A DNA stretch of 64,000 bases from positions 21,997,853-22,061,852 of the forward strand of contig NC_088296.1 of NCBI RefSeq assembly GCF_032854445.1. The letters are read 5' to 3'. Source of the stretch: Liolophura sinensis. Its lineage: Eukaryota > Mollusca > Polyplacophora > Chitonida > Chitonidae. Positions 4,038 to 34,365 of the stretch are shown in pieces (the first letter of the stretch is position 1; the number at the start of each line of letters is the position of its first letter). The notes below the pieces were generated by a model. The model saw only the letters and a list, made by a program, of their open reading frames with translations. It did not search any database and was not told where the DNA came from. A program made the translations under genes and the position numbers.

Positions 4038-4335
4038 GTTGCGACCACTACCATTACTACTACCAGTGCTACTTCACAACAACAACAACTACTACTACAT
4101 CACTGGAAGTACTAGTACTGCAGATATGAAATAGGCAAAGCCAAGGTGTGCACCCAGTGAATTACTTAACCTAGTAAATTATGGACACTGTGTGCTAACA
4201 ATACAATGTACATGTATACATTGATCTGCAAATTACTCTCACTAATTATGTATATGTAAAATTTGCAAGAGCTTGGTCCATTAGCTGATACCTCTTTCTT
4301 GCCTGATAAGGTTGCCCTTGGCTACTCCCTAACCC

Positions 4336-6882: not shown

Positions 6883-6955
6883 TGAACCCACCATAATTCT
6901 GGCCGCCGTCGTATAAGTGAAATATTCTTGAGTAAGGCGTAAAACACCAATCAAA

Positions 6956-6986
<31 letters not shown>

Positions 6987-6988
6987 AA
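6883..6988 (+). repeat. SINE tail
   Basis: 'ccaccataattctggccgcc', 'cgtcgtataagtgaaatatt', then a pure (AAAT)n run of about eight repeats. The counterpart in unit 2 (13,812) has a shorter tail. Confidence 0.85.
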
Positions 6989-7747
6989 CATAGACCCTTT
7001 GCTTTGATATAGGAATTTGCTGCAGGCTGTGACCTCATACCAGTAACACCCATGTTAAGCTACCGCCTCCTACTTAGATCAATCTGGATGGTATTATGTT
7101 GTAAACTTGTGTGACTGATTCTCTTTTCTGTCTTATAGCCTTATACATCAACAGGGATTACTGTCCATGTTTGTAGCTCTGACAGGAAACTGCGATATCC
7201 TTAATTTGCATGTTAATATTCATTTTTAAATACAGAGAGCATACGTGAACTACGGTAGGTAACTGCTTTAAAGATGTAATTCACAATACAAAGTGACAGG
7301 TAGGTTATTAGGGAGTATGGCGAATTGTTTTCTCCAGGCTCTATATCTGGTTTTATTTACCCACAGAACTGACCGACACCCTGCAAGTGAGCAAGTGAAT
7401 GTACGGCATAAAAAACAAACAATTGTGTAACTGGTTAATAAAAAGTTTAACAAAAGGTACCACATAAATTCGCTGCATGTTTAAAACATGTGAATTTCAC
7501 AAAATGGTTTATATTGAGAACATTTTAACCTCTGACCATGCTGCCATTTTGGCATAAAGCAGAGATACATGTATACATTTCAACAATTTGTAAAACATAA
7601 GTATTTGTTGATTTCAAAATCTGTAATGTATATGGGACTAAGAACTAAACAAACAAAAAAGAAGCAGGAAGTAGGAGATGAAAACATGTTTGTAATAGAA
7701 TAAAATACAAGTATATTATTTATGCTGATTATGTAATGGGTGTCTTT
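6989..7747. other. Right part of unit 1, no gene
   Basis: AT-rich non-repetitive DNA, nearly identical to about 13,905-14,664. Nothing recognisable. Confidence 0.45.
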
Positions 7748-7867
7748 ATTTATTTATTTGATTTGGGTTTTAAACTGTAACGAACTCTGTCCGATTTCCC
7801 ACCATAATGCTGACCAACGCCTTATACTTCAGTGCAGTGTAGAACAACAAATCAAATAAATAAAAAA
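7748..7867. repeat. Junction of two SINE pieces at the right end of unit 1
   Basis: The first 35 bp read as a minus-strand SINE tail (TTTATTTATTTATTTGATT and onward), shared with unit 2. At about 7,783 the sequence switches to a plus-strand SINE 3' half (CGAACTCTGTCCG, then 'cccaccataatgctgacc', then an (AAAT)n tail). In unit 2 the minus-strand SINE continues unbroken instead. Confidence 0.7.
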
Positions 7868-8126
7868 ATGAAATATATACCAGATAGGCCATGCAGCATG
7901 AAAAAGTGTTTTGTTCTGTTTAAAAGATTATCTATCAAAATAAAAAAACTAAGGCTGTGCTTAAATACTTGCTTTTACGTCATTCTTACACGTGCTGTTT
8001 CAAAAGTCATTTATACAAATGTATAGCTATTTAATTTTGACCATTATGTTAAACATATGTTCTCAAGAGCTAGAGCGAAACACATAGATACTGGCACACA
8101 TATCGTCTTCCTTTCTGGATATATCC
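7868..8126. other. Spacer between the two duplicated units
   Basis: A single-copy AT-rich spacer with a 64-codon open frame (7,832-8,026) that has no domain or splice context. Nothing recognised. Confidence 0.5.
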
Positions 8127-8179
8127 TACCAGGTACAAACCTGATTGTCACGTGAGCTTCAGAGAAATCACCATGAAGA

Positions 8180-8728
8180 TTGACAGGATCGAAGATTCTG
8201 TATTGTAACAATGACTAGATCGACGTGACGATACTGTATTTTAAAAACGACAGGATCGATATAAAGATCCTGTATTGTAACAATGCCTGGATCGACGTGA
8301 AGATTCTGTAGTGTAACAATGACAGGATCGACCTGAAGATTCTGAATTGTAACAATGACTGGATCGACGTGAAGATTCTGTAGTGTAGTAATGACTAGAT
8401 CGACGTGAAGATTCTGTATTGTAACAATGACTGGATCGAGTTGAAGATTCTGTATTGTAACACTGACAGGATCGACGTAAAGATTCTGTATTGTAACAAT
8501 GACTGGATCGATGTGAAGATTCTGTAGTGTAACAATAACTGAATAGAGTTGAAGATTCTGTATTGTAACACTGACAGGATCGACGTAAAGATTCTGTTGT
8601 GTAACAATGACTGGGTCGACGTGAAGATTCTGTATTGTAACAATGACTGGATCGACGTAAAGATTTTGTATTATAACAATGACTGGATTAACGTACAACT
8701 TCAGTATGGTTATAATGACTGGATCCTA
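8180..8728. repeat. 36-bp tandem array A1, copy 2
   Basis: About 16 monomers of the same 36-bp unit as at 660, so it is larger than in unit 1 although the other two arrays are smaller. Confidence 0.85.
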
Positions 8729-8804
8729 GTAAAGAACTCTTAACGTGAATTTAATATACGGGAATAATTATTAGATTATTTTGAAGTGTATGTACTGGAA
8801 AAAT

Positions 8805-8965
8805 GACTGGATGCACGTGAAGTGTAGGCACGGAATAATGACTGGATGCACGTGAAACGTAGGCACGGAATAATGACTGGATGCACGTGAAGTGTAGGTA
8901 CGGGATAATGGCTGGATGCACGTGAAGTGTAGATACGGAATAATGACTGGATGCACGTGTAGATT
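8805..8965. repeat. 35-bp tandem array A2, copy 2
   Basis: Five monomers of the GGATGCACGTGAAG-type 35-bp unit, against eight in unit 1. Confidence 0.85.
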
Positions 8966-9937
8966 CTTATATGGTAGAAAAAAATTACCCCTGCAAAGCC
9001 GAACAGGAGATATCATACACAAACGTGCATTACCATGAACTGTACTATCTGTCTGTATGGCGAATTTCCTTGTATAGCGGAGATAGAGATTACTGTGCAT
9101 ATTTAATTAAATTCTTCCTTATATAAAAGAGCTACAACAGCTGATGTTACATGTACATACTTAAAGCCCATACATTTCACGTGTGCCTTGTAAGTGCGAA
9201 ATACATACGAACATAGGTCAAACATGTCAATCGCAAGCTGATCAAAACAGAGGGACGTATGACTTGATCAACGATGATTGACCTGGGTGGTCTCTTCGTA
9301 ACACGTGAGTAATGATTTTATTTTATCATCTTCCAGTTGAAAAGTCTTATGCATGTGTCCAGAGTGCTTGGATATGCGTGCCACATGACTGAAACATGGT
9401 CACGTGTCGGAAGTATAAACAGGTGATGTGTAGTCAGCGACCTGTCAGTATTGCAGCACATTATCAGTGAAAATGCCTTGCCGACCTGAATCCAGGCTTG
9501 CTTCAGTGTTAGTCTCAGCCTGTACCACTGTAAAAAGGTCTGCCACAGGTCTAGAATGGCAATGGAAACGGACATAAGCCAGCACCGTGTAAACCGTTGA
9601 TAACGGTAACATAAATACTGGTATTACCGGTATGACCTTTATTAGCACCATTACATGTACAGCTACCACTACCATTAATATTACTACTGTTGCTACAACT
9701 AACACTATCACTACTACTGCCACTGGTGCTACATATACTAGTGCTACTGCTACTACATATGTATTTCTAATACTAAAGGCTATTTGCACAGACGTTACCG
9801 TATGTACTAACATTTCTACCACCACAAAATACCACTACAAATATTACTATTCCTGCCACTTCTACTACTGCAAATGCTACTACAGAACCCTATAATATTT
9901 TCACTCTTGGAGTTTCTGTTACTTGTACGTGGGACGG
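8966..9937. other. Non-repetitive part of unit 2
   Basis: Counterpart of 1,453-2,416, including the ACN-rich tract at about 9,632-9,890. No gene recognised. Confidence 0.45.
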
Positions 9938-10062
9938 TATGTCACCAACCTGTTTATGGTGGCTGTTTTCACCTGTCCTTTGCCCTGTTTCCTCCCACCA
10001 TAATGCTGGTCGCCGTCCTATAAGTGAACTATTCTTGCACATCATCAATAAAAAAATAAATT
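9938..10062 (+). repeat. SINE 3' part, left of array B in unit 2
   Basis: Counterpart of 2,417-2,544, ending in an A-rich AAAT tail directly before the array. Confidence 0.75.
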
Positions 10063-10728
10063 ACTGCTACTACATGTACAATCACTACTACTGCTCTTAC
10101 TGCCACTACATGTACAATCACTACTACTGCTCTTACTGTCACTACATGTACAATCACCGCTACTGCTGTTACTGCCACTACATGTACAATCACTACTACT
10201 GCTCTTACTGCCACTACATGTACAATCACTGCTACTGCTCTTACTGCCACTACATGTACAATCACTACTACTGCCCTTACTGCCACTACACGTACAATCA
10301 CTACTACTGCCCTTACTGCCACTACATGTGCAATCACTACTACTGCCCTTACTGCCACTACATGTACAATCACTACTACTGCCCTTACTGTCACTACATG
10401 TACAATCACTACTACTGCCCTTACTGCCACTACATGTACAATCACTACTACTGCCCTTACTGCCAATACATGTACAATCATTACTACTGCTGTTACTGCC
10501 ATTACATGTACAATCACCGCTACTGCTGTTACTGCTACTACATGTACAATCACTGCTACTGCTCTTACTGCCACTACATGTACAATCACTACTACTGCCC
10601 TTACTGCCACTACATGTACAATCACTACTACTGCCCTTACTGCCACTACATGTACAATCACTACTACTGATCTTACTGCCATTACATGTACAATCACCGC
10701 TACTGCTGTTACTGCTACTACATCTGTG
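10063..10728. repeat. 36-bp ACT-rich tandem array B, copy 2
   Basis: About 18 monomers of the same ACT-rich 36-bp unit, half as many as in copy 1. Long overlapping frames on both strands come from the stop-free monomer. Confidence 0.9.
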
Positions 10729-10738
10729 ACTGGTCCAG

Positions 10739-10905
10739 CTAATGCTAGCTTCCTCTCCGGCCTAACATGGGAAAGTCTGTCAGCAACTGTAGGTTCCCTC
10801 CGGGCTCAGCCCGGTTTCCCCCCACAATAATGCTGGCTGCCGTCGTATAAATGAAATATTCTTGAGTACGGCGTAAACTCCAATGGAACAAATAAATTAA
10901 ATAAA
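10739..10905 (+). repeat. SINE 3' part, right of array B in unit 2
   Basis: Counterpart of 3,870-4,037, with the same 'cttgagtacggcg' and (AAAT)n ending. Confidence 0.8.
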
Positions 10906-11214
10906 TGTTGCCACCACTACCATTACTACTACCAGTGCTACTTCACAACAACAACAACTACTACTACATCACTAGAAGTACTAGTACTGCAGATATGAAA
11001 TAGGCAAAGCCAAGGTGTGCACCCAGTAAATTACTTAGCCTAGTAAATTATAGACACTATGTGCTAACAATACAATGTACATGTATTCATTGATCTGCAA
11101 ATTACTCTCACTAATTGTGTATATGTAAAATTTGCAAGAGCTTGGTCCATTAGCTGATACCTCTTTCTTGCCTGATAAGGTTGCCCTTGGCTACTCCCTA
11201 ACCCTGATAAGGTA

Positions 11215-11985
11215 TACTGGAGGTATATATTACTTGAGGTACATCACAGGTGTACCACTGAGGTGTATGATATCTGATCTGAAGTGTATGTGAAGGTGTA
11301 TCTGAGGTTCTGCAAGTTATGAATATTAATACCTCAAGTATATCTATAGTACACCTTAGTGAAGGTTTACCCTGGAAAGAATAGGTAAAAAAACTGAATG
11401 TCTGAGGTGTGCCCGAGGTATATGCTTATCGGTGGATGTTACCTGAGTGTAACGTGACAAATTCTGCAGCAGAAAGCATCAGTCAGTGCATAATTGGGTT
11501 TATTTTTCCACAGTCTAGACATCCACATATTTAGGGACAGTCATCTTGGAATAATTGAGGGGAAAATATTTTCATGCTTTCTTACTTATATTTATTTAGT
11601 GCACATTTTTATTTTTGCAGATGCACAAACAGTTGTAACTTTGTAGTCACCATTTTGTCAGAAGTAAAATGTCTAAATCTGATTTCTTATTTTAAAACTT
11701 TCCATATCTCTAAGGTGTATCTGAGATACATCATTTATTTTTTTCAACTTTCAAAGTTTCTGTGGTGCACCTGAGATATATCTTTTAATCGTTTATTTTT
11801 TTTCAAAGCTGCCGAAGTGTATCTGAGGTACATTATCTCGTATTCAAAAAGTGTTCCGAGCTCCTGAGGTATATCTGAGGTATATGCATATGACTGAGGT
11901 ATACCTCATCTATGCCTCACACTGAGGTGTACACTGGGTGTTCACCCTCATATGTGCCTCACACCGAGGTGTAATCCTCAATTCT
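11215..11985. repeat. Degenerate GAGGTRTA-rich domain, copy 2
   Basis: Counterpart of 4,336-5,112, with the same palindrome TGAGGTATACCTCA at 11,895-11,908. Confidence 0.6.
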
Positions 11986-13811
11986 ATAAGGGTGTTAGCT
12001 GCTGCTTAGTCAGTCAAGGTGAAAATTAAAAAATGAGATATGGTAACTAAGTTAAGTATAAAGGGGTTCTTCACTCTTACGCCACTCATATTAAGTGTAC
12101 CCTTGACATACGTGAGTATTTTCAAATGTTCAGATTTGTGCTTGACTAGTTCTGTTCAACACTTGCATATTTTCCAACATTGTGTAATTATAGTGTAAGG
12201 TGGTACTGGCTTATTTATCTTCAGTCACACGAGTCTAGTCAACATATTCAATGCTATGAACTATAGAATTTCCAAAAATCACAAGCATGGTGCCTTATAT
12301 GTATATGTCCGGCCCATTGTATCTTTTAATTTACACCTATGAGAATGGAAAGAGAACTATAAAACTCATTGTTTTATATTAAGGAATTGTCTGTGAAATC
12401 TATTAGGTATGCCATAATTCAGATTTTTGTGTGTACTCTCAATGTGATAGGAATTATTTTATTAAGTTCAGTATAAACAAAATATAGTTGAGTAATAATT
12501 TGCTGAAATATCACACACCATGTAAGTTGGTTGTATACATGGAGAAAATTGGAATACTTGGGGTAAACAACCGCCATTTGACAAGTCATTAAGACCAACT
12601 TTATCGTAGCAAAATCGCAACAGTTGGTCAAGAGTTACCTCCCTTACGATGGCTTGTTGATTTCAGTTGACTTAAATACTATTGGTGCTAACGACATTCA
12701 CGTAGTATAAAAACACAACGCTATTGTTGGATTTTCGGTACAGAGGAACAATGTAATTCAAAAGACTCAATAAACTGTGAAGTAAAACTCCTATCAATTA
12801 GTCAGATAATAACAACATCCCTGCTATATGATGTTGATGCCAGTTATAAAATTTATATTGCTTTCATAATACGCGCACAGAAACAGCTAAAAAACGGTCT
12901 AAAATTCATTTTAGAGCATCAAGAAAATCCAGCGGATGGGAGCCTGCCCCAGGATAATTTTGGTCAGATTTGCCTCGCTGCGCTCAGTTACAATTTTTCT
13001 AAAAAATCAAATTCAAAAGGACTCATATTTTTGGATTCAACCCTCGTATGTGCGTGTGCGTGTGTGTGTTCGCAGAAGAAACCGTAGAACAAGTTGTTTA
13101 CCTTTGTCAGTAGCCTAGTGATATGGCTGACCGAGGAACAGTTTGGTATCAGGAGATTCCTGCTTAAGTGTTACGTGATTGGTTGGCTGACTGTAAGTGT
13201 TTTTACCAGTCCACATATCCAAGCTCCCGTCTTTAAATGGTAGAGCAAGTTAGAGGCTGGAGAGCGTTTTCGTACAACTGACGGAGATTTTCCTCCGCGC
13301 GTTTCTACAACCAAGTTGTAGTTTAGTGTTTAAAACTACGTTGAAGGTGGGAATATTTTCGTGGAAAGTTTTGTATGCCCTGATAAATCTGATATGTTAT
13401 GATAAATCGGTGTATCTATTCAACAACACCGGAAGGAAACGGGCATTCCCGTTTCGAGCGCGGGTGGAACTGTAAATTGTTTGAAAGTTTGGTCAAATGT
13501 GTAGGCCTACTGGTGCAAGTCTAAGTCAGATGCATGTTGTTTTCGTAAGTAGACCTTTGCTAACCGGATCTTCTTTGTCAGAATGGAATAAAATTGCCGT
13601 GGAAATCTCCCAAATTACACCGTTCCAAGATGGATGCGTGACAGAGCCTTAATGCAGTTCAGAACGAGGCACGTTTTGCACGAGACAGTCGATTCTGCCA
13701 GAACTTTTTCACTTGCTGAGACTGTAGATAAGGGTAGATAACTGCCTATTTTCGTACACACGCTACCTGTTACACGTACTGCGTACGTTATCATCCACAT
13801 TTACAGTATCT
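11986..13811. other. Non-repetitive part of unit 2
   Basis: Counterpart of 5,113-6,882. It has small insertions relative to unit 1 (for example near 12,670 and 13,530). No gene recognised. Confidence 0.45.
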
Positions 13812-13904
13812 GAACCCACCATAATTCTGGCCGCCGTCGTATAAGTGAAATATTCTTGAGTATGGCATAAAACACCAATCAAATAAATAAATAAATAAAT
13901 AAAA
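13812..13904 (+). repeat. SINE tail
   Basis: Counterpart of 6,883-6,988 with about five AAAT repeats. Confidence 0.85.
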
Positions 13905-14664
13905 CATAGACCCTCTGCTTTGATATAGGAATTTGCTGCAGGCTGTGACCTCATACCAGTAACACCCATGTTAAGCTACCGCCTCCTACTTAGATTAATC
14001 TGGATGGTATTATGTTTTAAGCTTGTGTGGCTGATTCTCTTTTCTGTCTTATAGCTTGATACATCAACAGTAATTACTGTCCATGTTTGTAGCTCTGACA
14101 GGAAACTGTGATGTCCTGAATTTGCATGTTAATGTTCATTTTTAAATACAGAGAGCATACGTGAACTACGGTAGGTAACTGCTTTAAAGATGTAATTCAC
14201 AATACAAAGTGACAGGTAGGTTATTAGGGAGTATGGCGAATTGTTTTCTCCAGGCTCTGTATCTGGTTTTATTTACCCATAGAACTGACCGACACCCTGT
14301 AAGTGAGCAATTTGAATGTACTGCATAAAAAACAAACAATTGTGTAACTGGTTAATAAAAAGTTTAACTAAAGGTACCACATAAATTCGCTGCATGTTTA
14401 AAACACGTGAATTTCACAAAATGGTTTATATTGAGAACGTTGTAACCTCTGACCATGCTGACCTTGTGGCATAAAGCAGAGATACATGTATACATTTCAA
14501 CAATTTGTAAAACATAATTATTTGCTGATTTCAAAATCTGTAATGTATATTAGACATAGAACTAAACAAACAAAAAAGAAGCAGGAAGTAGGAGATGAAA
14601 ACATGTTTGTAATAGAATAAAATACAAGTATATTATTTATGCTGATTATGTAATGGGTGTCTTT
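13905..14664. other. Right part of unit 2, no gene
   Basis: AT-rich non-repetitive DNA shared with unit 1. Nothing recognised. Confidence 0.45.
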
Positions 14665-15771: not shown

Positions 15772-16138
15772 ATGACTACTTCTATTGAATGTAAATATAC
15801 TATTTCAGTTGTGTGTGTGCTCTGGAGTGTTGAGTGTGTTCTAAACTTAACCGCTTGGGAGGAAGACCCAGTTACCCTTCCGTGTCTCGTGTCAGGGGAG
15901 AAAACCGATGTGGAGTGGTACTGGTGTAACCAAACATGTGATCACACGCAGCGTGGATTGGTTTTTGCACACTTTGGGAATGATTCCACGGTGATTGGAG
16001 AGCCTTGGCGCCCAGCTGGAGTGGACCTTCTGAAAAATTCCTCAGTGAGGATCAAGTCCGTGTTGTCTGGCAGGGACAACCGGAGATTTGTGTGTGTGAA
16101 GGGAATTCGTGAAAGCACCATCTATCTTACTGTCTTAC
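15772..16138 (+). CDS. Ig receptor exon 1: leader and V-type Ig domain
   Basis: It encodes a modest hydrophobic stretch (residues 11-24), then an Ig fold. C38 and C108 are the expected disulphide pair and W49 is the core tryptophan. An extra C52/C56 pair follows the tryptophan. Sequons occur at N25, N53, N70 and N89. The donor is C|GTACGT, phase 1. The leader is weak, so translation may start on an upstream exon joined at the acceptor-like site near 15,808, which would also be phase 1. Confidence 0.75.
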
Positions 16139-19100
16139 GTACGTATATAATGCTCTTATAATCTCTCAGTGCTTTTATGTGATCTTGTTTGAACACGTTT
16201 TAGTACAACTACAACTACGGCCATTTAAATTACTAGTAATAGTGCTACTAATACCACTAGTATTACCAGTTATATTTCTAATAAAAGTACTCCCAATAAT
16301 TCCATTAGTCACTGCTCCATGTGCCACTCTTCTGGACGCAAAACAGATTTCATGAAATTTTCTATTGATAGTTTGTTTTAACGGGTTTCTGTCATCGTAT
16401 TTTTTACTTGAATGTTGTTAAACAATGTACTCTAATGGAGGAAATCATACAGAACCAATGGGGAAGATTTGCATAACTAGTGAGGAAACCGTATAGAACC
16501 ATTGAGGAAACCGTATAGAACCATTGAGAAAACCGTATAGAACCAGAGAGAACCATACGGAACCACTAAATAAACGTAAATAACCACTGAGAAAATGGTA
16601 CAGAATCTCTGAGGAATTGCCACAAAACTACTGAAAAAACATCTGCACATAGTAACTGAATGTCAGACTCCGTGACGCCAAGCTATGGTTGGTCTAACCA
16701 GGCCATAGTGTACTCACTCGGCACGTTAGTAGGTATTGTGCCTCCATTCCCGAGCACAGCACCTCAGATCGCTCTTATGACAAGTGCGCTGAGAAATACC
16801 GGAGAAAAGCTTTCCCAAACAATTTTATAAAGAAAAACAAAATTAAACGACGCGTGTAAAATTAACTCCTGTTGAATGAAATGAAGATTGTGGTTCTGAT
16901 TTGTTTGTCGAGGATAACTTGTTTAGAACTTTTAGAGGGTTTGGGAGGTTTCCGTCTTATTATCAAAATGTTTCTCTGGCTGGCGCATTCGGCAAAGATA
17001 CCAGACTTCCATTCTGTAAGTCAAAAATATTGACTTTTGCTATAAGGACCTAGCGGAATAGCAGATAAATAAACAATGCCCTGTTTCCTGATAAAAAAAA
17101 TGCAGAATCTGCTGATTCGTGTGGGTTTTGAACGAGCTCTGTATAGTTTCTTATAATAATGCTAGCTCCGTCGTATAATTCGTGAGTGTGGAATAGTTTA
17201 AAAACACCAGTTAGATAAATAAATAAAAATTCCAGATTCAGACGAAACTTGACAACAGTCACATCTTTTTGCCAGAAATGCCAAGAAAAGTGACGTTGAA
17301 AGGCCCGTGTTCAGTTCGACCCGACAAAACAGTGACGTATACATGTCATGTGTACGGCGGAAACCTCGCTCCAGTCCTCAGTTGGTATCTGGGTCAATCC
17401 ACAAAAGCACTGACGTCACAGATAGGGTCTGATGAGAGGAGTGATGTCACACTGAGTGTGAAGAAGGAGATGAACGGGAAAAGCTTGAGATGTGAAGCGT
17501 CAGTGTATGACCGTGTTGTCTCGGAGGAGAGGATTCTTGATGTGAGATGTAAGTGTCCAGTTTACTGAGATCAGTAGATGTCATTTAGAAATCTGACAAA
17601 AGTTTGTTTTAGGTGACTTTGGCAACGGTGTTGTGCGAATTTGTTATTTAAAACCCAAAGGAAAGAGTGTGTAACTCGAACACATGTAGTTCTCGTAGAT
17701 GTGTGTAACTACAAATTGTGTGGAGATTCTTTAAGTTTACAATTATATATTGTAATATCCTTTAAACTGTTCATTAATGGGGCAGCATTATATATTTCTT
17801 TAAACTAAGACGCAAAAAGACACTAATTTTTCACATGACTGTTTTTGATGCATAGAAATAAGCAACTTGTCTGGTTCATAGCTATTATTGATAACCTTTT
17901 CCACAGACAAGCCTGCTATGAAGGTTGAAGAGCGACCAGCCTTGTACTCTAGTAGTGACGAACTGCTTTTGATTTGTACAGCCGATGGTAACCCTCCGCC
18001 AGAAATAACCTGGTCGTTCAAAGGCACAGTTATAGCCAAGAATAGCAATAATAGCAGCCATAACAACAACGAGAGAAGTCATGAAGAGGAGAGAGACAAG
18101 TCGGTGGAGCTTAGCAACAATAGTTCTTCAAGCGATATTTACAGCTCAACACATAATGGACACGAAAACAACCCCAGCATCAGTGGAGACAAACTAGTGT
18201 GCCCACCAAACAGAGAGAGTAGACTCAACTCCGACCTTGTCCATAAAATCACAAAGTTGGGTGTGCATCTTGGAGTCTACAAGTGCATTGCGGAGAATTC
18301 AGAAGGAATATCCACCGAGCTCCTGGTGGTTAGTATTTTAAGTGAGTAACATTATGTGTAATTTTACATTATATACCGCCAAGAAAAAATTTTAGCAGTC
18401 TTTTCTTTTCAGCTTAATTTCTACACAGTGTGAAAGAAGTTTAGCCTAGTTCCAAGTTACAATATATATTCTTTAAGCCTGCTTGTCTACATTTCTCGGC
18501 CCTGCATGTATACGACATTAGCTGACACAGTACGACGTACCCATGGAGTACACCGTTAAGCCACATGCGACAGCTTCCCGATTTGTTTTGTTTAAACACA
18601 TTGTATAGTTGAAAAAGAAGCGCACTCACCATTTTACAAACCATAGCAAAACACTCACGAAAACACATTTACGAGGCGTAAAAACCGATCTACGTATGGT
18701 GGATCGCTGATACATGTAAACCTTGAACTTCCGTTGTCATCTGACCACTCAACTCGCTTGTGTCCATTTAGTAAAATCTAAATTTAAACACGGAATCAGA
18801 GACAAGTTCAGTATGCTTAGGCGATGAGTTCAGGAAGAAATTTGATGCGACCAAGCTGATTGGTAAATAACAAGGTCAACCACTGGTCTGTATGCTTGAG
18901 TTTATCTAAATTTGACCAGACTCTTCAACGCAGCCCTGACATGACCGATGCTAATCTTGCTTCACTGGAGGCGCTCAGATTATTGAATATTACACGTGCA
19001 CGATTTACTGGAATGGAATACATCTAGCCTCGGTAAGACAAATTGTGTTTCACTTTAATTTTATTTTATCATCCTCTCAGAGGGATGCAGAAGTTGTAAA

Positions 19101-22100
19101 ACTCACATCGGGTCTTGCCGTAAATATACATTCACATTGCGCTGAAGATGTTTCACCATGTTAGAGCCTTGGATTTCAACACTATTTGATTCTAATTCTT
19201 TCGCGTTATGTTCACATGTGGGGATTTTTTGTGATTTAATGCAAGTGAGAAGGAGGGGAAAGGGGGTGTAGGCCAAATATTAGTCATGTCTGGTAGTCGA
19301 CGATGCTCTAGTGAGGCAGTGCTAAACTCGTGTTGACTTGTACATGTACATATGTAGGCAACACCTGCTACAAGGTGATACCGCCTTGAAATTGCTGTCA
19401 ACAAGGTGAAAGCGCCGGTGAAATTCAAGAAAGCAGTAACACTTCAAAGTAATACCCCGGCTGAGATACTGCCAATATGCCGTTAAACTTGAATCATTCA
19501 TTCAGCCAAGCTTTTGTCTGTTGTAGATCCATTGCGTCCAAGCCAGGAGCAGCTGAGTTTGTCGACGTTTCTCCCTTTCATAGCTGTTGCAGCGGTGGTT
19601 GTCGTTGTTGCAGTTGTCGTCGTTGTTATTGTTGTAATAAAGTACAGTTGCTCGGCACAGGGTAAGGATCATGAGCAGACTATGAAAAAATAAATAATAA
19701 TAATAATAAACTACGAAAAACAACTATAAAAAAAATGAAATAACCGTTGCGTAACCCAGTAGTCAACCTATGTAGCTTGTAATCGCTATAATACAGTCCC
19801 TTTGCGTATTTGTGCTGAGACAAGTAACATAAAACGGACATTTTATCTACTGGTATGAAAACCTGTAACCTGAATTTGTTACCTCAAAAAATGGTGGCAC
19901 TTCCAGTGTTATGGGCTGTTACCAGTTGGTGGCATCTAAGACGACTTGCATCACACACTCACCTAAAAATATATATTTGGCAAAGTCATTCTTCCCGGAA
20001 CTGTAATAAAGAATGTGAATTAAAACTTATCCTATTTGTACACTTACTTAATTCCACAGGCCGACACGAAGCACTCAGGCTGTCTGATGGACATCTGAAC
20101 CACAATGAGGCGGAGATGCCTGATATTCAAGGTATGCCGTTTTGATCAATTTTCAAAACAGAGAAACAAATATGTAATGGCCAGAATATATTTGGTTGTT
20201 TTTGTGTAAGTACGCGTATTATAACGCTCAAGTCGATAATGGCTGTCTCATTAGCGGTGTAAGGGACATAGCTCCATGGCTCCGTGATTTGTTTATTTGC
20301 CCTCTTTTTGGCGCTAAATTCAGTCACAAATATGGCGACGCCCTAGTCCGGGCATGTTCGGCGTGGGAACCGGTATGAAGCCTCAAAACGTCAATGAATG
20401 GTCAGTCACATCAGCACTTAAGCATATCAGCACATGAACTCATCATTGTGTCGTAACATAATCGCATCATGAGTCATCGCACCATCAGTCATGTCATGCA
20501 CTGAAAAGCCTTGAATAAAATAGACATGAGTGACAGCATGAGAATTGCGTTTTGCCTTCATACTGAACTCCATCCGTTACAAAATAATCACTCAATAATT
20601 ACGGAAATTTTTTTTTTCGGAGGTTTACGTTAGCGGGAAATGCCCATATATGTACATTCCCTCCCAGTCCAGCTGTGTCAAGTTTTGACTGACCCAAGCG
20701 TCCATTAAGTGTTCCAGTATGACGACATTGGCCAAGAAGCCGTCGGTCCCAGATCTGGTAGCTGTCATAGAATTGATCAGACACAAGATTTTTAATTTAA
20801 TATTAAGGATTGCTTTAGACCTTCATGACAAGAATGAAAATTAGTTTTACGTTCAAATCTTATTAATAATAAGATTGAGTAATACCTCATGTTAAAATTT
20901 TATTCACGTTTAGGACAGGTTTGTGACCTTGACCCTGGCCGTTCAGGCCACGTTTTCTAGCCTAGGTCATATTGCTATGACCGGCTTTAAGTCAGAAGAT
21001 TTGTAAGGTTTATGTCATGCATATGGCGGTAATTTCCGGCAGGCCCTCGTGATCTCTAACATAAAAGTGAAATATTTGCGGAAAGCATAATTAGCAAGTA
21101 TTGGGAGCTGTCGTATTAGAATGTATTCATTAACTTTATTTATTTGTTTCTTGGTTTATTTGTATTTGTTTTTTGTAGTTCTCAAGAAATATTTCATTTA
21201 TGTAAAAGGTTGTGAAGGGCTTTGGGTAGAAAGGAACCGGGGTACACGCAGTTAATCACCGGCATTTGCCGGGTATATTTGTATGAATAAACTCCTCTCT
21301 TATCATGTTACAAGCAAGTTAAACGTGGATAAAATCGAGGTATGCGTTAACTAGGGTGTCACTATATGATTACCTCAATACACGACAACTAGTATAATTT
21401 GAGATGTTCGTTACAGATAACTTCTCCTATATTCACCCAGTGTTCGTGACTAGTGGTGAGTATTAACCATTTCTTGAGACACAATTAAGTTTACAGGTAG
21501 TTGGCAAACATAAGTACAAAAGCGAAGCTACGTTCAATTAAACAGGCAATTGTAAAGAGATACACACTTTTTATACCCGAATTTTTATGTACACTCTTAG
21601 ATACTGTAATGACAGCATTGGATAGAATCCTCAGGTGCAAAACCGCACCATAGAGTTGTTCTCGTGATGTGTATATTTGAATCCATTTTTCAAAGAAATC
21701 CTTTCATTCGTGCTTGTAGCAACCACAAGTGTTCGCCATCATCCGGTTCAAGCTCCTAAAGGTCAGTGTACATTTCATTTCCGGTTAATAACCATGATTA
21801 CAGGGGCCACTTGATAAGAAGGTCAAGCGAAATGGAGTTCTTATTATCTTTTTGTATAAGTTTGACCGAAATCCGCGTTACTTTAAAAATGTGATTTCTA
21901 ACTTTTACAATACACAGAACGTCTACCACAAAACTGTGCTAACTCTTCTCATCGCCCATCATGGTGACAAATACTTAACCTGGTGCTAGATTTAATGATG
22001 TCATTCATGGCACGTTTACAAATTATCTTTTTAAACAAATTAAATCTCTAACTATTTTGCATTTCCCTTGTTGTAGATATCCGTCATTTCAAGAAACGAG

Positions 22101-25100
22101 GTATCGTATATCACGGAGGATTTTAATTTCCTAATTGTCTTCTACATGTTAATTTCTCATTATAGGCATACAGCAAACCATCACACAACCGTCAGGTCAA
22201 AAGAAAATTCTGTGTGTACTTACCCCTTAATCTTTATTTTTGTCAGGTGTAGTTGTCAGGGTCACGCTACTGGCTAATCGCTAACTAGATCTGAAGTACA
22301 AACGTAAAGTTACTGCACAATGCATCTCCCTAAACTCACCTACCACTGATTGCATGTAAGTCGTCAAGACTCTCACTTAAAGGATACAAAATCGATTCTG
22401 GTTGACATTGCTAAGTTTTGGGTGCGATACATGCGTGACCAAGGCCGCTGGTTCTCCAGTGCCAGCCAGTAGGCATCAATTCTTTATCCCTTTAAGTCAG
22501 AAGTCCGTGCCGCTCCCTAATCCGATTTAGCTCTGATTAAATCTGAAGAAGCACTTTCCCTCATCCTACCAAGTTGTTGGATCAAATGATTGCTTAGCTC
22601 AGCGTCCTTAGATTATTTGAATTTTTTATTTTTTAAAAATAATTCAGAAAGAAACAACTGAAAAGAAAAACTGGAGTTAATATCACTATGCATTGTTTTC
22701 AGTCTGCTTTTCCAGCCCGGAAATCCTATATCGAGACGAGGAAGGTAACTTTAAACTGATTTGTTCATTTGTCGGTTTTCGAGATAGAAAATGTCAACTC
22801 ACCAGTAATGCTCTTCATTTTATTGAATTATTTATTCTTATTTAATGTCGGACTAACTTTTTCACTCATACGATGGCTGTTAGTTTTATGGCTGGTAGAA
22901 ACTACAGTAACTGGGGGAAATCATATTCCGAATTACCGACGAACTGTGCTTTCTTATACCCACATTCCATATTGATGGAAGACATGTTGTCTGAAACAAA
23001 CGGTAGAGTGGACAGACGACCACGAAATAATTTATTTATTTATTTGATTGGTGTACTCAAGAATATTTTACTTATACAACGGCGGCCATCATAATGGTGG
23101 TATTAAACCGGGCTGAGCTCTGGTGGAAACCCATGACCATCCACGAGTTCCTCCACCCGAACATCGTCAGCCGCTTGTTTTCAGAGGGGGCGTAATGATG
23201 TTTTAAGTTAAATGACATCACAAGTACCTGATTACAGTAAAGAAAAAACGTTTTGTTACATTTTTAGGATGAGAGTATACGATAACTGTTAATTAATCAA
23301 ACAGTTTATTTTGTAAAACTTAAAACTCTTCGCAATTTAATATGAAAATTTGAAAATTTAAAAATCCTCTTTTGAAAAGTTTGTTCACTATTCCAATTGC
23401 TGTTTAACATCTAGAACTGCTCATTGTGTACATGGCGGTCCTGATTGTAGATGGACCAAACCTAAGTGCACCGCATAAACTGACAATCCTCCTGACTAAT
23501 TGCCTTCGAGCTAGATCCAAGTTAAGAATCTCACTGGACAAGAGTCCATTACTTGGGGCGAAAGGGATGTTTGCTTAAAAATCAGGCCATTTTATTATAC
23601 TAACGCAAAGAAATGTTTGTTTTTCTATATTATTATTACATATATTGCAGATCATTTCAATGTTAATATCAGTTTATACAGATTTTTCTGCTGCTACGGA
23701 TTACATGCGTCCTGATAACGTCATCTTTGACAGAGCAGGTGTCCCAGGTAAATTTGCAATGCAGTTTATGAATGTACATTAGAAATGGTTGTCATACATC
23801 ATTTTGACTTATTTTAACATTAGTTTAGTTTCGAGCTCGCGCGTTATTTCTGGGAAATCACTGTTAAAGTAAAAGGAAACCAAAATATGAAGTGAGGTTT
23901 ACCATGAAGACACCTCAGTTTATTTCTTCAGATTTTTTGAGAGTGTTGAAAGGCATTCAAATATTTGAAAACTAAGGTGGGCTTTATGAGCATACTGACG
24001 GTATCCAGGAAGTCTGATATTACATCACCATTTCCCCTGATGTTCACCAGAAGGAAATAATTTTTGGGAACATTATTTTCAATAATCTTTCACCCATGGG
24101 TAAAAAGAGTTATTTCAACATTCAGTGTCGTGATTGTGTTGGATAAACTTTCTGTGACGTTCCTAGCCCCTGACAGTATGATCCATTAAGCCCACCTCAC
24201 AAGTCAAATGTTTGAGCGCCTTCCACTCTTTTCACAAAAATCTTAAAAAAATAAATGAACGTATATTTACGCATAGTTTTAAGTTGTCTGCTTAATGATG
24301 CCTACTTCGATTTTTAGCGGTCTTCTCTTTTAACAATGAATATCCGTTATAGTGCACGCTACCAAATCTAGAACACTACCAAAAGACTCCATGGGCTTTA
24401 TGAGCATACTAACGGTATCCAGGAAGTCTGATATTACATCACCATTTCAAAAGATTGTTCAAAAGTGCCTTCAAATAGTTAAATCAGACATAATGTGAAT
24501 ACAAGATTTACTCTAAACGAATACTTATTGTACCTTAAACCAATTTTAAAATTATGCTTAAGTCTAACATCCTTCTGAATTGTGGACTAAAGCATATGAA
24601 GAATTTATAAATTCAGGCGAGTCGAAAATGTAGCCTGAACTACTTAATATTTTAGTGACTATATGTTTCTTGTTGTTATATGATGACACTGTCCCTATTT
24701 ATGTGCATTGTTTTTCTCTGTAGAGGAATACGACCCATACGAAACACCATTTCCGTTAGCTCCTAAGCGTAAGTAATTCTCGCATTCTCCCAAGCATTCT
24801 ATGTATAAGTTAATGTCGCACTTTACAGTTTTTCATTCATGTTACGACGAGGAGTCATTATTTGTGGGTACATATATTGTGTGCTTGTGGCAGAGCGAGT
24901 CAATGCCGCCAAAGTGCTGCCAACACGGAAGTGTCCTTGCAGAGGACACCAGTCATGACAGCCACCCAGTCTCTCCCCAACGTCTCTGGACTTCTTAAAT
25001 GTTTTATAAAATACTCCTCAAGACACGGTTCATACATAATCATTACTATCATACGCCCAATGAAATGAAGTAGTTTGGAGTTTTGGCACAAAGAAGATAC

Positions 25101-25165
25101 GTTCATTTTGGAAAGATATACTTTAAAACTGTATTTATTTGGGTGTTTCAGGACACACGTTCTAA
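15772..25165 (+). CDS. Ig-superfamily single-pass receptor, 13 exons
   Basis: Predicted 527-residue type I membrane protein. The joined exons are 15772-16138, 17276-17548, 17907-18341, 19527-19661, 20060-20131, 21417-21455, 21720-21761, 22077-22100, 22166-22195, 22703-22744, 23682-23747, 24724-24768 and 25152-25165. Every intron has GT-AG ends and every junction is phase 1, which makes the model self-consistent over 12 introns. Residues 1-122 hold a leader-like start and a V-type Ig domain, 123-213 a second Ig domain, 214-358 a third with a polar insert, and 374-396 the membrane helix. Residues 397-527 form a cytosolic tail with tyrosines at 432, 482, 494, 511 and 514. Ig receptors of this layout act in cell adhesion or recognition; ligand and pathway cannot be read here. 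The start is uncertain: an acceptor-like 'actatttcag' at about 15,808 could mean the leader lies on an upstream exon. No AATAAA lies close behind the stop. Confidence 0.8.
16432..16610. repeat. Short 22-bp degenerate minisatellite in intron 1
   Basis: Repeats of GAGGAAACCGTATAGAACCA with a 22-bp spacing, clearest at 16,488-16,560 and decaying on both sides. Confidence 0.65.
17120..17229 (+). repeat. Decayed SINE 3' part in intron 1
   Basis: 'gtgggttttgaacgagctct', 'ataataatgctagctccgtc', then an AAAT tail. It is truncated and diverged from the SINE at 27,335. Confidence 0.7.
17276..17548 (+). CDS. Ig receptor exon 2: second Ig domain
   Basis: A 91-codon phase 1-1 exon. The acceptor is 'ctttttgccag' and the donor T|GTAAGT. 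It shows the strand B cysteine in YTCHVYGG, the core tryptophan in LSWYLG and the strand F cysteine in LRCEAS, with a run of T/S/V residues between. An extra cysteine near the start (GPCSV) is unpaired in this domain. It joins exon 3 through a short LDVRY linker typical of tandem Ig domains. Confidence 0.85.
17907..18341 (+). CDS. Ig receptor exon 3: I-set Ig domain with Asn/Ser-rich insert
   Basis: A 145-codon phase 1-1 exon. The acceptor is 'ccttttccacag' and the donor A|GTGAGT. It has the I-set hallmarks LLICTADGNPPPEITW and GVYKCIAENSEG. Between the core tryptophan and the second cysteine lies an unusually long polar insert of roughly 55 residues, rich in Asn, Ser, Glu and His and holding several N-x-S/T sequons. 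The family norm is a loop of a few residues there, so the insert probably projects from the fold. It reads through AAC/AAT/AGC-rich DNA, which suggests growth by triplet slippage. Confidence 0.85.
19527..19661 (+). CDS. Ig receptor exon 4: transmembrane helix
   Basis: A 45-codon phase 1-1 exon. The acceptor is 'tttgtctgttgtag' and the donor G|GTAAGG. In the frame set by exon 3 it encodes a short juxtamembrane stalk and then a 23-residue helix of almost only Val, Ala and Ile (residues 374-396), followed by K397-Y398 as the stop-transfer edge. An overlapping frame gives a Cys-rich peptide and is rejected because it does not match the upstream phase. The GTT/GTC-rich DNA is near-microsatellite, so its length may vary between alleles. 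Confidence 0.8.
20060..20131 (+). CDS. Ig receptor exon 5: tail
   Basis: A 24-codon phase 1-1 exon, acceptor 'cttaattccacag', donor G|GTATGC. It encodes a hydrophilic His/Glu-rich segment (residues 404-427) without tyrosine. Confidence 0.75.
21417..21455 (+). CDS. Ig receptor exon 6: tail mini-exon with YIHP
   Basis: A 39-nt phase 1-1 exon, acceptor 'gttcgttacag', donor G|GTGAGT. It encodes DNFSYIHPVFVTSG. Y432 sits in a YxxP motif, a known SH2 docking pattern of Crk-type adaptors. Confidence 0.7.
21720..21761 (+). CDS. Ig receptor exon 7: tail mini-exon
   Basis: A 42-nt phase 1-1 exon, acceptor 'cgtgcttgtag', donor G|GTCAGT. It encodes a basic His/Pro-containing segment without tyrosine (residues 441-454). 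Confidence 0.65.
22077..22100 (+). CDS. Ig receptor exon 8: 24-nt tail mini-exon
   Basis: Eight codons, phase 1-1. There is a strong pyrimidine tract (TTTCCCTTGTTGTAG) and a weaker donor G|GTATCG. It encodes DIRHFKKR. The intron to exon 9 would be only 65 nt, so this exon and the next are the least certain of the chain. Confidence 0.5.
22166..22195 (+). CDS. Ig receptor exon 9: 30-nt tail mini-exon
   Basis: Ten codons, phase 1-1, acceptor 'tttctcattatag', weak donor G|GTCAAA. It encodes GIQQTITQPS. Its support is mainly that it is stop-free and keeps the phase. Confidence 0.45.
22703..22744 (+). CDS. Ig receptor exon 10: tail mini-exon with Y482
   Basis: A 42-nt phase 1-1 exon, acceptor 'cattgttttcag', donor G|GTAACT. 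It encodes VCFSSPEILYRDEE. Y482 has acidic residues behind it but no ITIM-type +3 hydrophobic residue. Confidence 0.65.
23029..23162 (-). repeat. SINE 3' part in an intron of the Ig receptor
   Basis: A minus-strand copy: (TTTA)n tail, 'gattggtgtactcaagaata', 'ggcggccatcataatggtgg', then the 'gctctggtggaaacccatga' segment. It lies between exons 10 and 11. Confidence 0.85.
23682..23747 (+). CDS. Ig receptor exon 11: tail exon with YMRP
   Basis: A 66-nt phase 1-1 exon, acceptor 'agtttatacag', donor G|GTAAAT. It encodes 22 residues including ATDYMRPDNVIF; Y494 is a YxxP motif. A second acceptor-like site at 23,650 would add a frame with a stop and is not used in this model. Confidence 0.7.
23927..24247. 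mobile_element. Candidate foldback (MITE-like) element in the Ig receptor intron
   Basis: The stretch at about 23,927-23,985 and the reverse complement of about 24,185-24,247 align over roughly 60 bp, sharing 'gatttttt', 'aaggc', 'caaa.atttga' and 'aggtgggctt'. The arms are diverged, about 75% by eye. A 57-bp piece starting in the left arm region (23,978-24,034) recurs at 24,392-24,448 with one mismatch. Confidence 0.5.
24392..24448 (+). repeat. Direct repeat of 23,978-24,034
   Basis: A 57-bp copy with one visible mismatch, starting TGGGCTTTATGAGCATACT. It is probably a fragment of the same intronic element. Confidence 0.75.
24724..24768 (+). CDS. Ig receptor exon 12: tail exon with YDPYETP
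   Basis: A 45-nt phase 1-1 exon, acceptor 'tttttctctgtag', donor C|GTAAGT (strong). It encodes EEYDPYETPFPLAPK. Y514 forms a YxxP motif and Y511 precedes it by three residues. Confidence 0.75.
24838..24985 (+). repeat. Second SINE family, fragment
   Basis: 'tacgacgaggagtcatta', 'gtgcttgtggcagagcgagt' and the following 'gtgctgcc..cacggaagtg' match the repeats at 28,625 (reverse) and 29,395. It sits in the last intron of the Ig receptor. Confidence 0.65.
25152..25165 (+). CDS. Ig receptor last exon (C-terminus)
   Basis: Acceptor 'ttgggtgtttcag'. The exon completes CGA and adds His, Thr, Phe and TAA, ending the protein in PKRHTF. The 3' UTR follows. It is very short in coding content, so the exact end is moderately certain. 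Confidence 0.65.
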
Positions 25166-27334: not shown

Positions 27335-27567
27335 GGGGCCTCCGTGGCTCAGTTGGTTAGTGCGCTAGCGCAGCGCAATGACCCGCGAGTCTCTCACCAA
27401 CGCGGTCGCTGTGAGTTCAAGTCCAGCTCATGCTGGCTTCCTCCCCGCCCGTATGTGGGAAGGTCTGCTAGCAACCTGCGGATTGTTGTGGGTTTCCCCT
27501 GGGCTCTGATCGGTTTCCACCCACCATAATGCTGGCCGCCGTCGTATAAGTGAAATATTCTTGAGTC
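27335..27567 (+). repeat. Most complete SINE copy, tRNA-derived
   Basis: The head carries a near-perfect A box (TGGCTCAGTTGG) and B box (GTTCAAGTCC), followed by 'catgctggcttcctccccgc', 'agcaacctgcggattgttgt', 'cccaccataatgctggccgc' and 'gtcgtataagtgaaatattc'. The copy is cut right after 'cttgag', before the usual (AAAT)n tail. I used it as the reference for the other copies. Confidence 0.9.
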
Positions 27568-28429: not shown

Positions 28430-28578
28430 TACTGCGAGGTCTTCGGCAACCTGTGGATGGTCGTGGGTTTCCCCCGAGCTCTGCCCGGTATCCTCCCACC
28501 ATAATGCTGGCCGCCGTCGTATAAGTGAAATATTCTTGAGTACGGCGTAAAACACTAATCAAATAAATAAATAACTAA
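28430..28578 (+). repeat. SINE 3' part
   Basis: 'ggcaacctgtggatggtcgt', 'cccgagctctgcccgg', 'cataatgctggccgccgtcg' and an (AAAT)n tail. It is closer to the apparent consensus than most copies. Confidence 0.9.
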
Positions 28579-31657: not shown

Positions 31658-34365
31658 ATGATGGAGAGACAGATGTTTCTGCTCGGACTCCGGGTTATCT
31701 TCGCTTTGTTCTGTGCTGTGATCAACGGGATAGATCTGTCCTTCAACGTTTATGCGGTCCCACTGAAAGACACGTTCGACTTTACCCAAACTCAAGGTAA
31801 GACTCAGTGTAACATTACCACAGTATATATGTACGTACACGTCCATATGTAAATTTGTTTAAGAGTTTCACACCGCCATAGTGGGGTTTGTTGTAAGAAC
31901 GAACAGCGGGTTAGAATAGCCGGCAATGAAAGGTTGCAATCAGTCAGGTTGAGAACATATATTTTATACAACTTCCCACCATCACTACCCCCTCCCCCCC
32001 CCCCACCCATCTCCACACCCCTCCACTACTTCAACCTCACCAACACTGCGATATAACATTAACACTCATACTATTATGATGGGGAAATATATAATGTAGC
32101 AACAAGGCAATCCCAGATAATTGTATATCGAGAAGATGTAACATCTAGAAATAAGGCGAAGTCCCTAAGTCGGAAATTGTCTAAACTGACGTCTTGAAAT
32201 GAATTCAAAGAAAACGTTGGATCGGCTTAGTTCTAGGAGCGTGGAGTTTGTTAGTATTTAAGCATTTACACCAACAGTTAGAATAAAACCCAAACTGAAC
32301 AGCTTGACAACAAGTTGCATTTCACAGGTCATTTATAAGCACACTTTCGTCCTTCTCTGGTTTTACTCTCAATGATGAACTTACTTTTTATCATCTTATG
32401 GCTGGTAACTACCGTGTAAACTCGCACTTGGAGCTTAAAGTGAATAAAATACAATTAAAATTCAAACACACAAAGTTTGCCAGTTACATGTCCTTGTTGT
32501 TGTTCCTTGTATCTGCAGTTGAAGCTTTGGCCTCAATGGTTTGTGTTGGATTTGGTCTGGCGTTCATAGAAATCCTGCTCAGCTCTAAGTTTGGGTACAT
32601 TACAACATTCATCGTTACCTGGATCACATTACCTCTCACCAGCGGACTATTTGGCCTTGCGGCTGTACACAACGAGTTCATGCACTCCCAGCCAGTGTGA
32701 ATCTATGTCATACAGATATGCATGTGTAAGTTAGTAGAAATAGCCAAACTTTCCACAGGAATATACAAAATTTGAAAGTGCTGGTTACCTTGTATAGGCC
32801 TCAGCTGTAATGAGAACAAAACCCCAGGTTCGACCTAGTTTCCTTCCAGCACACTACTAGCCTCCATCGTATATGTGAAATATTCATGCACAGGGTGTAT
32901 AAATCATACAAAAAAGTAATACGCAGAAACAAAGTAAAGGCAGATGTGACTTGTAAAACGGATTAACATTTTACAAGGGAAAAAAGGTGAAGAGTTTAAA
33001 ATTGTACCCTACGGTATTTACGGGCAACAAGAACTTACTTCTGCTTATGGTTTACTGGAATGCGTCTTTTTGACAATTTTACTCGTAAGTGAATGTAACA
33101 TTGGATAATATTGCACAGCGCCACATGACACATTTAGTCTCAACTTATGTTATAAGCCCAGAATAATTTTTAAAATGTTTGAAATATTGTCTTTCCTTCT
33201 TTCAGCTTTAAGTAATGTGGTAACATTGACTTTGGTGAGAAACGTTGTTGTTGGTATTTTACCAAAAAGATTCGTCGGAACCATAATTGGACTTACCGGC
33301 TCAACTGTTTGTTTCGGCAAGATAGCTTACTCTGGCCTGCTGGAGTTGATTTGTCATAACGACTTAGCCAAATTTTTCTTCACCATATCGATTGTGTCGG
33401 GTGTATTTCTCAGCTTGTTTTACCCATTGTTGTATCCCGCGGCCAGGGAACTGGAGAGCCACAGATATAGGCAGTAGCATGAGGAAAGTCACACAGAAAA
33501 AGAGTCGCTAAACAACTACCAGCGTGACGGGGAGTCGCACGACCACCAAGACACGGAGTCGCAAGGAACCTACCGGCAAAACGAGGAGTCGCACGACCAC
33601 CAAAGTGCGGAGTCGCTAGAAAACTACCAGCGAGACGGGTAGTCGCAAGACCACCAAGACACCGAGTCGCAAAGAAACTACAAGCAAGACAAGGAGTCGC
33701 AAGAAAAGAGTTATCTTAAGGAGTACAAAAAAGAAAACACACCTCTTGAGGACATGATAAGGGGTAGGTATTTCCACATGACATTTTGGACATCCACAGT
33801 TTTCGCCTCAGCTGCGTACACCGTTCTCAATAACATCACCTCCATTACCAGTTCCATCGGGATGAAGGAGTCATTTAACATTATCACCACCATGTCCGTG
33901 AGCATAATGATCATTCGCGTAGTCTATGGTATGTTATTTGATAAAGTCGCATCTCAAACATTTGCCTTTTGGCTTTTGTTCAGCATGTATTTCAGTTTTG
34001 CTCTTGGACTGATACTCGGTTTGTGCTATCTTAATAGTACCACCGTTTATATCATCGGGGTTCTGTGTGGGATAGCTGTGGGTCCGGCATGCGAACTTCC
34101 CGTGTTAGTGCTGGTGTTCCAATACGGGCGGTCGAACTTAAATCTAATATTTGTTGCGTTTTACTTCACATAGGCTGCCGGTCAACTAATAATGCAAATG
34201 ATGACTGGATACCTATATGACAGAAACGTTATAACTGGAACTTCATGTCAAGGCACACACTGTTTCTGTTGGTCCTTCGTCTTTCTTCTGGGCCTGACTG
34301 TTCTTATCACCACTTTTCAATTTATAAATTACTTGATGACATTCCACAAGTGTATAAAGTCGTGA
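31658..34365 (+). pseudogene. MFS-type transporter copy 1, four in-frame stops
   Basis: Same three exons as copy 4: 31658-31796, 32519-32725 and 33206-34365. Splice sites are intact and no frameshift was seen. Four premature stops are present: TGA at 32698-32700 (TGG in the others), TAG at 33475-33477 (TCG), TAG at 33640-33642 (GAG) and TAG at 34171-34173 (TTG). The cytosolic loop has one 54-bp repeat fewer than copies 2 and 4. This copy also lacks the E-box block that precedes copies 2-4, because it is the first unit. Several readable fragments (for example 33,754-34,173) are pieces of this gene. Confidence 0.85.

Follow-up and report, generated by a model that had tools for sequence, protein, structure and literature searches.

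A predicted receptor tail of symmetric, tyrosine-bearing mini-exons in two convergent immunoglobulin-domain genes of the chiton Liolophura sinensis

Results

Organization of gene A

A stretch of 64,000 nucleotides (nt) from the chiton Liolophura sinensis (contig NC_088296.1, positions 21,997,853 to 22,061,852; hereafter designated the window) carries on its plus strand a gene, designated gene A, that is probably a gene for a single-pass surface receptor with three immunoglobulin (Ig) domains and whose predicted cytoplasmic tail is divided among a chain of very short exons. Exon 1 (15772..16138, plus strand) contains a candidate ATG, a signal-like stretch recognized by eye and the first, V-like Ig domain; its donor is weak and its start site is putative, since an in-frame acceptor-like site at 15809 would allow the signal peptide to come from a separate exon farther upstream. 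The second Ig domain, which is C2-set-like, occupies exon 2 (17276..17548, plus), and the third (Ig_3 / I-set), with a low-complexity insert rich in asparagine and serine, occupies exon 3 (17907..18341, plus). Exon 4 (19527..19661, plus) encodes the juxtamembrane region and the transmembrane segment, the latter called by eye from its hydrophobic stretch. All 12 introns of the gene A model are in phase 1.

Pfam returned Ig domains alone for gene A (Ig_3 with an E value of 5.6e-16 in three stretches, I-set and C2-set_2), and no SH3, FAT-like or SH2-like domain was found in the gene by this search. The predicted product thus combines Ig domains with a single membrane-spanning segment, as in surface receptors of the Ig superfamily. 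Matches in the PDB to Dscam and to other Ig-type cell-adhesion proteins were taken as evidence for the Ig domains and for nothing more specific.

Downstream of the membrane exon lie eight mini-exons of, in order, 72, 39, 42, 24, 30, 42, 66 and 45 nt, each of which is preceded by AG and followed by GT, is open, has a length divisible by three and is in phase 1 on both sides (1-1). An earlier note on this DNA had proposed eight such exons of 24–72 nt with a ninth supplying the stop, and this description was confirmed exactly. Splice sites were scored at permissive thresholds with generic metazoan matrices, not trained on this genome; on this scale mini-exon 1 (20060..20131, plus; 72 nt) has the highest splice score of the chain. 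It is followed on the same strand by mini-exon 2 (21417..21455; 39 nt), whose peptide NFSYIHPVFVTS contains FSYIHPVF with a YxxP motif (tyrosine and proline separated by any two residues), and by mini-exon 3 (21720..21761; 42 nt; peptide TTSVRHHPVQAPK). Mini-exon 4 (22077..22100, plus; 24 nt), with a weak donor, and mini-exon 5 (22166..22195, plus; 30 nt), with the weakest donor among the eight, are doubtful and form the weak links of the chain by splice score. Mini-exon 6 (22703..22744, plus; 42 nt) encodes CFSSPEILYRDEE, mini-exon 7 (23682..23747, plus; 66 nt) contains DYMRP, and mini-exon 8 (24724..24768, plus; 45 nt) encodes EYDPYETPFPLAPK, the last two each bearing a YxxP. The coding part of the stop exon (25152..25165, plus; 14 nt) is GACACACGTTCTAA, preceded by tttcag, and encodes RHTF and the stop. 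Within gene A the mini-exons gave no sign of repetition, the longest stretch in common being 9 nt, which is below the longest in many shuffled sets.

A sister gene with the same layout

The layout of gene A recurs in a sister gene, designated gene B, which is convergent with gene A on the minus strand and extends from 61420 to about 74849, partly outside the window (positions are window coordinates extended past 64,000). Three Ig exons, a membrane exon, a mini-exon chain and a stop piece follow one another, all in phase 1. The first Ig domain, 42% identical to that of gene A, lies at 74849-74529, the upstream exon and the start not having been located; the second, 70% identical to that of gene A, lies at 73605-73327; and the third is encoded by a 585-nt exon at 72513-71929. 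The asparagine- and serine-rich insert of this third domain differs greatly in length between the sisters, the exon measuring 435 nt in gene A versus 585 nt in gene B. The membrane exon (71107-70985), the counterpart of exon 4 of gene A, was assigned by a simple composition rule.

In the tail of gene B, a 57-nt mini-exon (68334-68278) stands in the position of mini-exon 1 of gene A, with no recognizable sequence likeness to it. The next two, of 39 nt (67989-67951; YTCYLHPVSVQR) and 42 nt (67106-67065; NTRTIRHPVPLDR), pair with mini-exons 2 and 3, and exons of 24 nt (66279-66256) and 30 nt (65956-65927) take the positions of mini-exons 4 and 5, the splice signals of the 30-nt exon being weak as well. 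An extra mini-exon of 42 nt (64422-64381) is without a counterpart in gene A. Then come a 42-nt exon (63885-63844; CISSPELKTAKTE) that pairs with mini-exon 6, a 48-nt exon with DYPSP (63089-63042) that pairs with mini-exon 7 by position, the alignment being not significant, and a 48-nt exon (62272-62225; DDKNPYELPFPSAPK) that pairs with mini-exon 8. The coding part of the stop exon (61433-61420; 14 nt) encodes RHTY and the stop. The symmetric 1-1 tail exons thus number eight in gene A and nine in gene B. This sister gene with the same layout supports the proposal of the earlier note that symmetric mini-exons are chained into a receptor tail.

The chain compared with chance

The plus-strand interval 19662-25151 contains nine candidates for phase 1-1 mini-exons, namely the eight members of the chain and one that is a shortened version of mini-exon 7. 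A chain score of 46.8 was obtained, which was matched by none of 309 comparison windows and phases of the same size, overlapping and taken from the rest of the 64-kb window (mean, 11.0; standard deviation, 7.3; maximum, 42.3). The top rival, at 42.3, overlaps gene B, and it was by this route that gene B was found. When 1,110 overlapping windows were scored over 258 kb, the top five all lay on the tails of genes A and B, the best one on gene A scoring 37.1 and reaching past the exact interval into the membrane exon. On the comparison windows and the scan, a chance origin of the AG/GT pairs was rejected for the chain as a whole, though not for mini-exons 4 and 5. The 1,084 null windows of 5.5 kb that are left after setting aside 26 near genes A and B contain on average 2.4 candidates scoring at least 3 and 1.5 scoring at least 4, so that a weak link or two may be spurious and the two weakest need independent support.

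The preservation of phase over so many junctions had been thought unlikely to arise by chance. The uniformity of phase is less surprising than was implied, because all 12 introns are in phase 1 and any exon inserted or duplicated there must be 1-1 to keep the frame.

Conservation between the sister tails

To evaluate the likeness of the two chains, each of the eight mini-exons of gene A was compared with 23 candidate peptides of gene B, using 2000 shuffles. The best-conserved pair was that of mini-exon 8 (EYDPYETPFPLAPK/DDKNPYELPFPSAPK), with 9 of 14 residues identical and no shuffle equalling it, and its DNA aligns too. For mini-exon 6 (CFSSPEILYRDEE/CISSPELKTAKTE) 6 of 13 residues are identical (equalled by 1 of 2000 shuffles) and for mini-exon 2 (NFSYIHPVFVTS/YTCYLHPVSVQR) 5 of 12 (12 of 2000), whereas the likeness of the mini-exon 3 pair (TTSVRHHPVQAPK/NTRTIRHPVPLDR; 4 of 13 identical, 73 of 2000) is borderline with eight exons tested. 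The stop exons read RHTF versus RHTY. Thus, the two terminal exons, at 24724 and 25152, which had earlier been regarded as the weaker ones, turned out to be the best conserved.

The DNA of the two tails was compared with blastn at one setting on the plus strand. The only alignments with an E value below 0.01 were a repeat at about 23052-23144, two shorter matches overlapping or adjoining it and one around mini-exon 8; the match around the stop exon, with an E value of 0.067, was no better than some of those in introns. No conserved intronic signal or element was found between the tails in this single comparison. The retention of exons while the introns have drifted provides strong evidence for mini-exons 2, 6 and 8 and for the stop exon, and fair evidence for mini-exon 3, and support for mini-exons 1, 4, 5 and 7 comes from their position. 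Judged from the layout kept by the diverged gene B, most of the gene A mini-exons look real.

The 24- and 30-nt exons of gene B have CCAACATTTACGA in common, 13 identical nt in the same register, as compared with 12 for the longest such stretch in 300 shuffled sets. This pair looks like the duplication of one mini-exon, tolerated by its phase-1 neighborhood. The apparent duplication weakens the status of gene A mini-exons 4 and 5 as direct counterparts of the two exons; they show no likeness to them and no long stretch in common with each other.

Tyrosine motifs of the predicted tails

With every predicted mini-exon joined, the tails comprise 123 residues in gene A and 127 in gene B. Among their 12 tyrosines, seven occur in YxxP: three of five in gene A (YIHP, YMRP and YETP) and four of seven in gene B (YLHP, YEDP, YPSP and YELP). 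Two sites recur in matching exons, as YIHPV/YLHPV and PYETPFP/PYELPFP, and each YxxP lies whole within one exon. Seven or more YxxP were found in 3 of 100,000 composition-preserving shuffles, a figure that overstates the case, since the test was chosen after the tails had been seen and two of the sites are homologous.

The immunoreceptor tyrosine-based inhibitory motif (ITIM) has the form [SILV]xYxx[ILV], and none of the 12 tail tyrosines fits it by eye, by which an ITIM tail was rejected. In motif presence, the cytosolic regions carry several YxxP, as in the YxxP arrays to which CRK docks. Phosphorylated YxxP is the consensus for the SH2 domains of CRK and CRKL, YxxP repeats are present in membrane proteins of choanoflagellates, and two phosphopeptides covering five of the ten motifs of one such protein bound the SH2 domain of choanoflagellate CRK (PMC5043372). 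From the excess of YxxP together with this binding we infer an adaptor-docking function, that is, a modular phosphotyrosine tail built of symmetric exons.

Relatives of genes A and B

When the genome was queried with the second Ig domain, at least 34 matches were obtained. Thirteen lie on the same chromosome (C2) between 13.9 and 28.3 Mb with E values of 1.2e-4 or better, genes A and B among them; C2 carries a further match at 0.012 and C143 one at 5.5e-7, and the other 19, with E values above 0.003, are weaker and lie elsewhere. For six of the 32 matches outside genes A and B (L026–L031, distant relatives on the same chromosome), 10 kb downstream were read for the tail. Downstream of a membrane exon, L027, L029 and L030 have candidate tail exons in phase 1 that contain tyrosines but have other lengths and motifs. 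L029 and L030 each have a 42-nt candidate exon (YEDISEDILSDNS and YEDIAEDILTEDS, respectively), 9 of 13 residues being identical by eye. The tails of L026, L028 and L031 were not resolvable within the 10 kb. Modular phase-1 tails may be a habit of the family as judged from these candidates, and among the loci read the short YxxP chain has so far been seen in the A/B pair only.

A comparison of the A and B mini-exons with the candidates of the relatives gave no pairs at an E value of 1e-3 and missed the A–B pairs too, so that it was too insensitive. A genome-wide query with the tail likewise gave no relatives and missed gene B as well, and is uninformative on absence.

In L026 (G000:C2:16855347-16865346), the membrane exon of the relative, at about 2231-3099 of the reverse complement, has its 3' part tandemly repeated. 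There are six copies at a spacing of 101 bp and three variant ones, still open and with splice-like borders.

Discussion

We estimate at roughly 60% the probability that genes A and B are two convergent sister receptors whose tails are built up from independent mini-exons of phase 1, with a tyrosine motif, typically YxxP, in many of them. What the sequence itself provides is the predicted anatomy of the genes, the persistence of the chain in gene B, an excess of YxxP and, again in gene B, one probable exon duplication. On such a basis, binding of a ligand would lead to tyrosine phosphorylation of the tail, the phosphorylated YxxP sites would recruit CRK-type, and perhaps NCK-type, SH2 adaptors to the membrane, and the recruited adaptors would promote adhesion, engulfment or cell-shape responses. 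The gain, loss or skipping of whole mini-exons would alter the number or kind of the docking sites, leaving the frame unharmed.

Several observations weigh against this interpretation. By the cruder measure of the number of candidates scoring at least 4, of which gene A has seven, the chain is equalled by 2 of the 309 comparison windows, and with a stricter penalty per exon the exact interval scores 30.8, as compared with 31.2 for one of the 1,084 null windows. Mini-exons 1, 4, 5 and 7 lack significant likeness to gene B, and in the shuffle test each had its best match elsewhere than in the exon at its own position; mini-exons 4 and 5 equal their partners in length (24 and 30 nt) but are identical to them in 0 of 7 and 0 of 9 residues. 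Substitution rates in the tail are near saturation, with a synonymous rate (dS) of 1.76 and a nonsynonymous rate (dN) of 0.71 over 68 codons and with 2.41 and 0.82, respectively, over all 101; for mini-exons 4 and 5 alone, dN exceeds dS. As for the motif, 5 of the 12 tail tyrosines are not in YxxP, and the seven sites are not fully independent, two being homologous between the genes and one lying in the 24-nt exon of gene B.

The alternatives are partly compatible with the assembly of the tails from independent mini-exons and with one another. The one that survives best, to which we give an even chance, is that all mini-exons are always joined, the phase reflecting growth of the chain by insertion and duplication of exons, so that the modularity would be evolutionary and not a choice among isoforms. 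Such a constitutive chain agrees with the phase 1 of every intron in the model, with the probable duplication and the one extra exon in gene B, and with the lack of conserved intron elements in the single A/B comparison of DNA. A UGC near the 3' splice site is a signal of neuronal microexons of the SRRM4/eMIC type; TGC is present there in 8 of the 17 exons, the background being 0.30 per 30 nt, and is neither clearly nor significantly enriched. Weak donors in mini-exons 4 and 5 and the weak 30-nt exon of gene B, however, would be in keeping with optional exons, and the precedents of chicken BG and PECAM-1, considered below, are spliced alternatively.

We put at somewhat below even the chance that gene A really has a shorter tail, some of the links (22077-22100 and 22166-22195 in particular) being fortuitous AG..GT pairs. 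The null windows supply about 2.4 candidates scoring at least 3 per 5.5 kb, and mini-exons 4 and 5 have the lowest summed splice scores of the eight and no residue in common with their sister partners, whereas the occurrence in gene B of two exons in the same order and of the same lengths speaks for them.

The earlier note had held that any subset of the mini-exons can be skipped without a frameshift. Indeed, all eight are 1-1 and the phase permits it, giving 256 subsets in theory; combinatorial splicing is a prediction from this exon symmetry, permitted by phase only. That subsets are actually chosen by cell type or state, yielding up to 256 tails of varying docking valency in gene A, seems unlikely to us. 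The frame would survive any skipping, several units carry a short motif and two have weak donors, but skipping is not implied by phase symmetry alone. A splice-programmable phosphotyrosine tail, in which cell-type-specific subsets of YxxP mini-exons set the adaptor valency and the chain evolves by duplication of single exons, would be an improbable elaboration, put forward here as speculation. Finally, it is very improbable that gene A is a decaying copy with the chain as a relic, as might be suspected from the interrupted copies of another gene among the nearby repeats in the window and from the weak donors of exon 1 and of mini-exons 4 and 5, since every exon predicted for gene A is free of stops and has AG/GT borders, and the conserved residues cluster in the motifs.

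Among known systems, the chicken BG proteins have tails of 13–36 exons, each 21 or 24 nt long and coding for heptads that are believed to make up a coiled coil, with alternative splicing in the cytoplasmic exons (PMC4046983). Like them, genes A and B encode Ig-type surface proteins with many tiny tail exons after the membrane exon, in numbers that vary between copies; unlike them, with their one V domain, genes A and B have three Ig domains and eight or nine tail exons of 24–72 nt. The gene A exons, unlike the heptad exons, are mostly dissimilar and bear tyrosine motifs, one of the eight being 24 nt long and none showing heptads by eye. The resemblance to BG is one of layout. PECAM-1 (CD31) has its tail in eight alternatively spliced exons, and variants lacking exon 14 fail to bind SHP-2 (PMC5664058). 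It is likewise an Ig receptor with a tail spread over eight exons, but it has six Ig domains and ITIMs, as against three Ig domains, YxxP and no ITIM here. Relatives among the CEACAM1-like receptors have exchanged short cytoplasmic exons with tyrosine motifs along with the membrane exon (PMC2110893). Short cytoplasmic exons bearing tyrosine motifs are thus common to both, whereas the CEACAM1-like exons (Cyt1–Cyt4) carry ITIMs or activation motifs (ITAMs), the first ITAM being interrupted by an intron in phase 0, and here the phase is 1 throughout and YxxP is unsplit. Multiple YxxP sites are a feature shared with the substrate domain of BCAR1/p130Cas and with the YxxP membrane proteins of choanoflagellates, which are transmembrane and in which, as in BCAR1, they form a docking array for the CRK SH2 domain (PMC5043372). 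Unlike these proteins, genes A and B have an Ig ectodomain and their sites are spread over separate symmetric exons.

Genes A and B resemble BG, PECAM-1 and CEACAM in layout and, by the features tested, are members of none. Another molluscan Ig-domain receptor, oyster IgIT, is reported to signal by tail tyrosines of the inhibitory (ITIM) type; both are Ig receptors of molluscs and the motif type differs. A search for literature on Ig receptors or immune gene family expansion in chitons found no paper, subscription papers being mostly uncovered, and in the part of the matching literature on molluscs and splicing that was covered, again with few subscription papers, no such tail appeared by title or abstract. 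We read the mini-exon YxxP tail as new in detail, chicken BG and PECAM-1 being known examples of its kind. Provided that the tail works in the way its anatomy implies, symmetric motif exons would let splicing or exon duplication adjust the output of a receptor with the frame undamaged; a mollusc would then be doing with YxxP what chicken BG and PECAM-1 achieve with other motifs. The two sisters also offer a simple natural experiment for telling which mini-exons are under constraint.

Other features of the window

Between 30900 and 60000 lie tandem copies of a repeat unit that codes for membrane-transporter-like stretches, so labeled by eye. The copy at about 32300-34365 has in-frame stops at 33475, 33640 and 34171; the copies near 41 kb and 55 kb have none at these places, but the one at 41 kb is interrupted elsewhere, by a stop at 40820. 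At 1400-14300, a stretch of about 7 kb that contains a 36-nt minisatellite occurs twice in tandem; the largest family comprises 56 register positions, at least 30 of them at 2400-3743. Inverted copies of a short dispersed repeat, 81–88% complementary, are found at 27419-27566 and 28446-28574 versus 63293-63473, one of them being near the tail exons of gene B.

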